A DNA stretch of 43,948 nucleotides from Oscillospiraceae bacterium. GTDB lineage: Bacteria; Bacillota; Clostridia; Oscillospirales; CAG-272. The stretch is from contig SVUF01000003.1 in NCBI GenBank assembly GCA_015063395.1, forward strand, positions 1 to 43,948, written 5' to 3'. The translations under genes were made by a program, and so were the position numbers. Position 1 is the first letter of the stretch. Each line of letters opens with the position of its first letter. Below the pieces are notes generated by a model. The model made no database searches. It worked only from the letters and a program-made list of their open reading frames with translations, and had not been told where the DNA came from. Below are positions 9,795-12,350 of the stretch, piece by piece.

Positions 9795-9839
9795 ATATAA
9801 TCAGTATATAATTGCAATACGAAAGAAAGGAATTATCGT

Positions 9840-12350
9840 TTGAAAAAAGAAAAATTCAGAATCGGCGGTATGACCTGCGCCGCCTGCGTCTCATCAGTTG
9901 AAAAGGCAGTCTCCTCCCTTAAAGGTGTCACAAAAGCAAGTGTAAGCCTTATGACCAACTGTCTTGATATCGAATATGACGAAGGTCTTCTCACTCCTCG
10001 TGATATTATCAAGGCAGTAAAAAATAAGGGATATACCGCTGAAGAATATGACTCAAGAAAAAGAGATGACTCCACGGAAAGTGCCGACAAAATGAAGCTG
10101 CGGCTTATTGTTTCCCTTGTTTTTCTCTTCCCTCTTATGTACATTGCCATGGGCAGTATGGCAGGACTTCCTTTGCCCAAGGCTTTAACCCAAAATTTCG
10201 CCCTTTTCGGAGCATTACAGTTTATTCTCTGCGCTCCTGTTGTAATTATAAACTATAAGTTTTTCACCGTAGGCTTCAAAAGACTTATAAAGCTTGATCC
10301 AAACATGGATTCCCTTATAGCCACAGGCTCGGGAGCTTCCATTTTATATTCAGCCTATGCCTACTATAAAATTCTGACATCATCAACTCATGATTATCAT
10401 TTATACATTGATTCAGCCGCAATGATCCTCACCCTCATAACCTTGGGTAAATTTCTTGAGGCAAGAGCAAGACGCAAGACCTCGGGGGCATTACACAATA
10501 TTGCCAGTCTTGCTCCCGAATTTGCAACCGTCCTTAGAAACGGCGAGGAGCTGAATATCCCCACAGCTGACATCATGATCGGTGACACGGTCATTATGCG
10601 TCCCGGGCAAAACCTTCCCGCTGACGGAGTGATCACAAAAGGACACGCCTCCCTTAACGTTTCCGTCATCACCGGCGAAAGCCTTCCTGTTGATCTGTCA
10701 GTCGGAGACCTTGTAAGCGCAGGAACAACCAATCTTAATTCCTCCTTTGAATTCAAGGTAACCGAAAAGGGCGAGATGACCACCCTTGGAAAAATGATCG
10801 CATTAGTAGAAGACGCAGCCGCTTCAAAGGCACCAATCGCACGGCTTGCCGACAAGGTGGCATCGATCTTTGTTCCAACAGTTATCGGAATTGCTTTTAT
10901 AACCTCAATTATTTGGTTTTTTATAACGTCAAACCTTGAAACCGCACTTTCCGTTGGTATAACAGTGCTTGTAATCGCCTGCCCCTGCTCTCTCGGTCTT
11001 GCAACTCCAACTGCCATAATGGCAGGTACGGGACGCGGCGCCGAATTTGGAGTGCTTTTCCGTTCAGCCGAGGCGCTTGAAACACTTGGCAAGTCGGACT
11101 GTGTCATTCTTGACAAAACAGGTACAATTACAAGCGGCGTTCTTACAGTTAATCACGTTATTCCGCAAAGCGATTCTCTCACCGAAGATCATATAATTCC
11201 TAAAAAAGAGAAAAGTGAACAGCTTCTTGCCATCTCCGCCGCCTTGGAATCCCGTTCCGAGCATCCAATCGCCAGAGCCATTTGCAAAAATGCAGAGGAA
11301 CTTGGGCTTAAACTTCCGGAGATCAACAGTGAAATCACTGCCATGCCCGGTTACGGAATCAAAGGAACTATCAATTCTGACGAATACGTCATCGGAAACA
11401 GCGCAATATGCAAAAATATTCAAATTCCCGCAGAGACACAGAAAATAATAAACACTCTCGAAGCATCGGGAAGTACCGTTGTGAGAATTACCAAAAACAA
11501 TGAATTTATAGGCTTTATCGCTCTTTCAGACCGAATTCGTACAGATAGCCCTGAGGCTATAAAATTCATGAAGGAAAACGGCATCACTCCAATTATGATC
11601 ACCGGTGATAACCAGGGAGCCGCCTCCGAGGTTGCGCGATCAGTCGGGATCACCTCCTTCACCGCAGAAGCTAAGCCCGATGACAAGGAGCTTGCTGTCA
11701 AAAAGCTGAAAACAGCGGGACACACTGTCGTAATGATCGGTGACGGAGTAAACGACGCTCCTGCCCTTGCCTGTGCTGACATTGGAGTTGCCATCGGATC
11801 AGGAACCGATATAGCCATTGAAAACTCCGATGTTGTCCTCATTGGAGGACGTCTTGGGGATTTCTGCAACGCATTGACAGTCTCAAAAAAGACCATGCAG
11901 ATCATCCGCCAAAATCTTTTCTGGGCATTTTTCTACAATAGCATTGGAATCCTTCTTGCAACCTTCAATCTTGCAAGTCCCATGATCGCTTCTGCTGCCA
12001 TGAGCCTCAGCTCCCTGTGTGTTGTCTCAAACGCATTGAGACTTCGTAAAATCAAGCTCGAAAAAGTATCAGCAGAGGTAAATCACGCGGCAAGCCCTCA
12101 ACACAAAAACGCTATTAATAATAATATAAAGGAGATATCCACAATGAAAAAAGAAATCGTTATTGACGGAATGATGTGCATGCACTGCTCAGGCAGAGTT
12201 GAAAAGGCTCTCAATGCCATTGACGGTGTTGAAGCAAAGGTCGATCTTGAAAAGAAGACCGCTTATGTCACCTGCCCCGACACACTTGATACCGCAGTAC
12301 TCACAAAAACCGTAACTGATGCAGGATATACGGTTATAAGCATCAACTGA
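9840..12350 (+). CDS. copA: Cu(I)-exporting P1B-type ATPase with N- and C-terminal HMA domains
   Basis: The 836-residue protein starts at TTG after GAAAGAAAGG. The order is: an HMA domain with GMTCAAC (Cys13, Cys16); membrane helices; the actuator with TGES; the transport motif C381-P-C383; the phosphorylation motif DKTGT (Asp425); MITGDN and GDGVNDAPAL; a last helix pair with FFYN and M-S-L-S-S. CPC with these late-helix residues is typical of Cu(I) exporters. After the last helix a linker of about 50 residues leads to a second HMA domain (GMMCMHC, Cys780 and Cys783) that looks like a whole CopZ chaperone. No CsoR or CopY box was recognised upstream. It may be transcribed from the PHP promoter. 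Confidence 0.93.
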   Translation: MKKEKFRIGGMTCAACVSSVEKAVSSLKGVTKASVSLMTNCLDIEYDEGLLTPRDIIKAVKNKGYTAEEYDSRKRDDSTESADKMKLRLIVSLVFLFPLMYIAMGSMAGLPLPKALTQNFALFGALQFILCAPVVIINYKFFTVGFKRLIKLDPNMDSLIATGSGASILYSAYAYYKILTSSTHDYHLYIDSAAMILTLITLGKFLEARARRKTSGALHNIASLAPEFATVLRNGEELNIPTADIMIGDTVIMRPGQNLPADGVITKGHASLNVSVITGESLPVDLSVGDLVSAGTTNLNSSFEFKVTEKGEMTTLGKMIALVEDAAASKAPIARLADKVASIFVPTVIGIAFITSIIWFFITSNLETALSVGITVLVIACPCSLGLATPTAIMAGTGRGAEFGVLFRSAEALETLGKSDCVILDKTGTITSGVLTVNHVIPQSDSLTEDHIIPKKEKSEQLLAISAALESRSEHPIARAICKNAEELGLKLPEINSEITAMPGYGIKGTINSDEYVIGNSAICKNIQIPAETQKIINTLEASGSTVVRITKNNEFIGFIALSDRIRTDSPEAIKFMKENGITPIMITGDNQGAASEVARSVGITSFTAEAKPDDKELAVKKLKTAGHTVVMIGDGVNDAPALACADIGVAIGSGTDIAIENSDVVLIGGRLGDFCNALTVSKKTMQIIRQNLFWAFFYNSIGILLATFNLASPMIASAAMSLSSLCVVSNALRLRKIKLEKVSAEVNHAASPQHKNAINNNIKEISTMKKEIVIDGMMCMHCSGRVEKALNAIDGVEAKVDLEKKTAYVTCPDTLDTAVLTKTVTDAGYTVISIN
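12144..12350 (+). CDS. Candidate internally initiated CopZ-like copper chaperone
   Basis: This is in frame inside copA. The ATG at codon 769 sits 7 nt after AAAGGAG (12128-12134), a near-perfect ribosome binding site. Translation from it would give a free 68-residue protein, MKKEIVIDGMMCMHCSGRV..., the size and pattern of CopZ (MxCxxC copper site). The two codons encoding Lys-Glu make up the Shine-Dalgarno core, so the site could be chance, a relic of a former copA-copZ gene pair, or a working second start. The first two residues repeat the KKE that opens the full protein. Confidence 0.4.
   Translation: MKKEIVIDGMMCMHCSGRVEKALNAIDGVEAKVDLEKKTAYVTCPDTLDTAVLTKTVTDAGYTVISIN

Follow-up and report, generated by a model that had tools for sequence, protein, structure and literature searches.

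The locus described here raises the question of whether a single bacterial copA gene could supply both a Cu(I) pump and a free copper chaperone. The window, meaning the whole stretch of DNA that was analysed (43,948 nucleotides from an Oscillospiraceae bacterium), contains a copA gene encoding HMA domains at both ends of the protein. The first-pass annotation, made from the sequence alone, had proposed that an AAAGGAG located 7 nt before an in-frame ATG at the boundary of the C-terminal HMA domain could allow this domain to be made separately as a free CopZ. The gene and the parts that concern its full-length product are as follows.

9826..9831, plus strand: Shine-Dalgarno (SD) sequence of the copA TTG start, AAAGGA, with a spacer of 8 nt and a predicted pairing of -5.9 kcal/mol
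9840..12350, plus strand: copA, Cu(I) P1B-type ATPase of 836 aa with a TTG start and an HMA at the N and C termini
9855..10037, plus strand: N-terminal HMA of CopA (PF00403, 66 bits)
12045..12143, plus strand: hydrophilic linker running from the last transmembrane segment to the C-terminal HMA, assigned from the translation, with the internal SD inside it

The CopA protein scored 521.7 bits against TIGR01511 (cut-off of 397), which meets the requirement for membership of the Cu(I) P1B-1 ATPases, and 587.5 bits against TIGR01525. Its Pfam matches were PF00122, PF00702 and two stretches of PF00403, and the translation contained the ACPCS (CPC), DKTGT and GDGVNDAPAL (GDGxNDAP) motifs. The features that would define a second product lie at the 3' end of the gene.

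12128..12134, plus strand: internal SD, AAAGGAG, read in frame as AAG GAG (Lys-Glu), with a predicted pairing of -8.8 kcal/mol and nucleotide-level conservation in relatives
12144..12146, plus strand: internal ATG in frame with copA, putative start of the nested copZ, with an equivalent ATG in 175/187 distinct fused relatives
12144..12350, plus strand: nested copZ for a 68-aa CopZ-like HMA protein (PF00403), sharing the copA frame and the copA stop
12177..12188, plus strand: metal-binding CxxC (Cys-Met-His-Cys) of the C-terminal HMA, assigned from the sequence

The sequence from position 12120 onward is 12120-AATAATATAAAGGAGATATCCACAATGAAAAAAGAAATC. The site and its frame were found as first described, but the spacer between the internal SD and the ATG (ATATCCACA) is 9 nt rather than 7 nt, which is within the functional range. 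The ATG does stand at the domain boundary, as had been claimed, and opens a complete 68-aa product in which the PF00403 match spans 12162-12332. This product scored 45.9 bits against PF00403 (cut-off of 24.8) and carries the CxxC within MCMHC, meeting the criterion for an HMA domain, and the ATG lies 11 codons upstream of the first Cys of MCMHC, the position expected for the start of a free CopZ. The product fell below the CopZ equivalog cut-offs, with 57.1 bits against NF047957 (85), its best NCBIfam match, and 53.5 bits against NF033794 (95). It is therefore filed only as CopZ-like; its best-named relatives are CopZ, and a function as a free Cu(I) carrier is inferred.

By predicted energy, the internal site pairs more strongly with the 16S anti-SD than the TTG start of copA itself does, the exact 16S 3' end being assumed. 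The start region was also predicted to be unstructured (-3.2 kcal/mol per 60 nt, versus -15.7 kcal/mol in the rest of copA), which is owed partly to its A-rich composition. An internal promoter for copZ was considered and rejected: only a weak 9-of-12 match was present (12098-12125), and the total count was within ~1.6 sd of that in shuffled sequences.

The window sequence alone is insufficient to show that such a site is not due to chance, and this was decided by comparing relatives. A search with a junction query found the C-terminal fusion to be widespread in the same family, and a GTDB genome scan with a junction query, which is biased to fusions, added 62 further loci. The combined loci comprised 190 fused copA genes, 187 of them with distinct tails; a further 14 copA genes were followed closely by a separate copZ, and 17 lacked one. 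A second, unbiased family sample was picked by the CopA core alone and gave 124 CopA proteins from 56 genera, of which 99 were fused, 11 had a separate downstream copZ and 14 had neither; a boundary ATG and SD were present in 87 of the 99 fused genes. A class-level search with 60 further loci yielded 48 fused genes from more than 30 families. ATG and SD were both found in 45 of these, the remainder being one with a GTG behind AAAGGAGG in place of the boundary ATG (L291), one with an ATG and a weak SD, and one with neither; the fused loci L273, L305 and L306 in this sample were assessed by hand. Many of the genomes in the relatives' samples are probably metagenome assembled. An assembly or indel artefact joining two genes was excluded, as the fusion recurs in the majority of genomes sampled from many families.

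Among the 187 distinct fused tails, 175 had a boundary ATG, and 168 of these had an SD at functional spacing (≤ -5.5 kcal/mol). Strong SD pairing (≤ -7 kcal/mol) was found at 149 of the 175 boundary ATGs (85%). The linkers are A-rich and Lys/Glu-rich, so that AAGGAG might be no more than a chance by-product of their A/G-rich composition, and codon-usage-matched synonymous shuffles of the six codons upstream of the ATG did produce a substantial background of 31% (53.7 strong SDs; sd, 5.3; maximum, 71; 200 replicates). This background is far from the 149 observed. At the other in-frame ATGs of the same genes (n = 1,985), only 3.5% reached -7 kcal/mol versus 85% at the boundary, with the caveat that the rule of taking the best ATG within 6 to 22 codons slightly favours high SD scores. 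GGAG and GAGG starts were almost confined to the 9 to 16 nt upstream of the ATG and were nearly absent elsewhere in the linkers. With the synonymous shuffles, the other internal ATGs and the position profile all against it, chance or A-rich composition was excluded as the source of the SD, and we consider an origin as a by-product of the linkers extremely improbable.

Codon choice and reading frame gave the same indication of conservation at the level of nucleotides rather than peptide. Lys-Glu was encoded as AAG GAG in 73/98 instances at the site versus 100/473 in the rest of these ORFs (Fisher P = 1e-23), and Lys-Gly as AAA GGA in 34/39 versus 48/315. The GGAG fell in one codon frame in 100 genes, in another in 35 and in the third in 2, giving sequences such as AAG GAG, AAA GGA GA and ACG GAG GA, and the SD was kept through at least 20 changes of codon frame on a tree that is rough, being built on ~140 residues. 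Whether the SD bases were kept beyond the needs of the protein had been put forward as a check on the proposal, and the synonymous, positional and frame-change tests answered it clearly in the affirmative. The criterion for in-frame internal initiation of the SctQ type was also met, in that there is an in-frame start with an SD at functional spacing, conserved in relatives. The comparisons constitute strong evidence that the internal SD and ATG are under selection, the production of a protein from them being inferred.

Fused relatives lacking the SD and ATG had been named in advance as grounds for refutation. Such relatives do exist, but they make up only ~10% of the fused genes, and most of them have lost both elements together. 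None of the 12 genes without a boundary ATG had an SD within the 22-codon limit, although one of them (L218) has AAGGAG and an ATG one codon beyond it. In two fused genes (L026 and L113), the boundary ATG was kept in the context VKRMKKT and the SD was lost. The genome with the first of these loci (G063) has a separate 71-aa CopZ-like ORF, which is consistent with a relaxed need. The copA tail of another locus (L159, genome G006) consists of a long, degenerate-looking linker followed by an HMA without a start or an SD; this junction is possibly frameshifted or decaying.

The origin of the arrangement bears on how its retention should be read. In sister families, a separate copZ lies 21 to 81 nt 3' of copA and is preceded by a similar, ordinary SD. 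The internal site thus clearly descends from an ordinary ribosome binding site. Most likely, an ancestral copA-copZ operon lost the stop codon of copA but retained the ribosome binding site of copZ, a change that would produce the present structure in one step. The same separate pairs would also be expected if the stop had been lost recently and the old SD and ATG of copZ, although no longer needed for a free CopZ, had simply not yet decayed. The fusion, however, is old and stable: the fused or unfused state switches only ~12 times on a 218-tip tree, and the tree length among the SD-bearing tips is ~42 amino acid substitutions per site. Moreover, the SD outlasts frame switches and is written with biased synonymous codons, while the neighbouring linker is conserved in neither length nor sequence. 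We therefore leave an undecayed relic only a small chance. It is argued instead that free CopZ is still required, since the ribosome binding site has been kept through many frame changes.

The linkers themselves ranged from 10 to 283 codons (median of 28) in the relatives and were stop-free; base shuffles left 32/175 open. As this linker set was defined as fused, the fairer figure is the 99 fused versus 11 adjacent but separate genes of the unbiased sample. From such comparisons, both the pump-chaperone fusion and the free product appear to be maintained.

Loci with several HMA domains at the C-terminal end were informative as to what the SD accompanies. Hydrogenoanaerobacterium saccharovorans (L046) has four C-terminal HMAs and two Holdemanella loci (L079 and L088) have two each, and in all three, AAGGAG(G) with an ATG was present only before the last. 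In the cultured species Holdemanella biformis DSM 3989 and H. porci, it is only the last HMA that has the SD. In the fourth multi-HMA locus (L058), the first domain is preceded by a weaker AAGGA. These observations bear on the possibility that the SD-like sequence serves not as a start but as a translational pause after the membrane part and before the C-terminal domain, assisting co-translational insertion or folding. The site does come shortly beyond the final transmembrane segment, a place at which pausing could plausibly help. A pause, however, does not require an ATG at a fixed spacing. The SD goes missing along with the ATG, it follows the last of the tandem HMAs and not the exit from the membrane (L046, L079 and L088), and the length of linker separating it from the membrane part varies widely. 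Gene content also tracks the SD site, as described below, and we hold a pause without initiation to be very improbable.

If the nested gene supplies free CopZ, genomes that have it might be expected to differ in their standalone CopZ genes. A standalone CopZ scoring above 35 bits was present in 1/24 genomes with a fused gene and SD versus 6/14 with a fused gene but no SD (P = 0.006); the 35-bit split was, however, picked after the hits were known. When any standalone hit was counted, the figures were 4/24 versus 6/14 (P = 0.13), and 4/24 versus 9/12 for genomes in which CopA has no C-terminal HMA (P = 0.001). Free CopZ does not seem to be universally needed, because ~10% of the fused genes are without the site and no standalone CopZ was found in 8 of the 14 checked genomes of this kind.

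No other CopZ was found in the genome of the window (G000). The only other small HMA protein there is encoded at 1453-2018 of contig C72 (L002), in an operon with an ArsR-type regulator and a ZntA-like P-type ATPase, which suggests a role in zinc or cadmium handling. It was excluded as a standalone copZ, since it belongs to that operon. A CsoR-type copper repressor (PF02583) was not found in this genome, which is 91% complete.

On the evidence from relatives, we consider it highly probable that this copA is a two-product gene with copZ nested in frame, from which both the CopA-CopZ fusion and free CopZ are translated. Ribosomes starting at the TTG at 9840 would produce the Cu(I) pump, its C terminus tethered by a flexible linker to a CopZ-like HMA. 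Other ribosomes on the same mRNA would be recruited by the SD (12128-12134) and begin at the ATG at 12144, producing that domain as a free 68-aa copper chaperone. The idea that one copA yields a pump and a chaperone is thus supported by the conservation of SD and ATG in relatives; in the absence of ribosome profiling, proteomics or reporter data, it is inferred that translation starts at the internal ATG, in what ratio the long and short forms are made, and that the short form acts as a chaperone. Whether or not internal initiation occurs, a free CopZ could in principle also be cut from the fusion by proteolysis within the linker, which is long, hydrophilic and, as inferred from its sequence, probably disordered. 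Cleavage, however, would leave the SD, the ATG and the codon bias unexplained, and the linkers are diverse in sequence with no obvious common cleavage motif. Proteolysis is barely credible as the explanation but is not excluded as an additional route. The broader proposal, which we regard as likely, is that a "fused operon" of this kind is maintained across much of the class, as a solution independent of E. coli-type frameshifting. Selection would hold open the fusion frame and preserve the internal ribosome binding site, so that every copA mRNA gives the pump with its tethered chaperone domain and also free chaperone in an amount tuned separately.

The proposed arrangement has parallels in known systems. 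Separate copA-copZ operons, of the B. subtilis and E. hirae type and in sister Clostridia, encode the same two proteins in adjacent genes with an SD before copZ; here the copA stop is gone, so that copZ is also a domain of CopA. In type III secretion, SctQ/HrcQ/SpaO genes use an internal in-frame SD and start to produce the full-length protein and a separate C-terminal domain (PMC8553256 and PMC4295842). The layout is that of the present copA, although the proteins are unrelated, and whereas the short form of the SctQ type stabilises or assembles with the long form, that of copA would be a diffusible copper carrier which may pass Cu(I) to the long form. HMA domains at both the N and C termini, as in the present CopA, also occur in the CopA of a 2010 study listed in PMC7558416. 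No earlier report of a copA-copZ fusion with an internal ribosome binding site conserved across a class was found in the literature searched, in which subscription journals were largely uncovered. In the 2010 system, CopZ is reportedly a separate gene product.

If the reading of copA as a two-product gene is true, conventional annotation, which calls only the pump from such genes, would overlook a free copper chaperone in many members of the class. It would also imply that a downstream gene can survive its fusion to the gene before it, as a ribosome binding site can stay under selection inside the fused frame. The arrangement would moreover be a second, independent solution to supplying both proteins from a single copA, one that draws on the opposite end of CopA and works by a different mechanism.

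The first of these solutions is that of E. coli copA, in which the domain released by -1 frameshifting and early termination is the N-terminal HMA. Like the present gene, E. coli copA is a single gene giving the pump and a free chaperone derived from the pump's own metal-binding domain. That programmed ribosomal frameshifting lets it produce the Cu(I) pump as well as a free HMA chaperone was described by Meydan et al. (2017) and Drees et al. (2017), as cited in PMC10187127 and PMC9548414, and the latter discusses Ribo-seq data that back it. The comparison with E. coli drawn by the first-pass annotation thus holds for the outcome but not for the mechanism. In the present copA, the conserved signal is an SD and ATG before the C-terminal HMA, a different device from the E. 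coli-type frameshift, and independent internal initiation would allow the amount of this domain to be adjusted separately from the pump. Directly 3' of the N-terminal HMA, at 10056-10069, the 0 frame reads AGA AAA AGA, and a -1 shift there leads to a TGA (10067-10069) a few codons on. At this position, the N-terminal domain could conceivably be released as in E. coli, but the heptamer is imperfect and may be there by chance.
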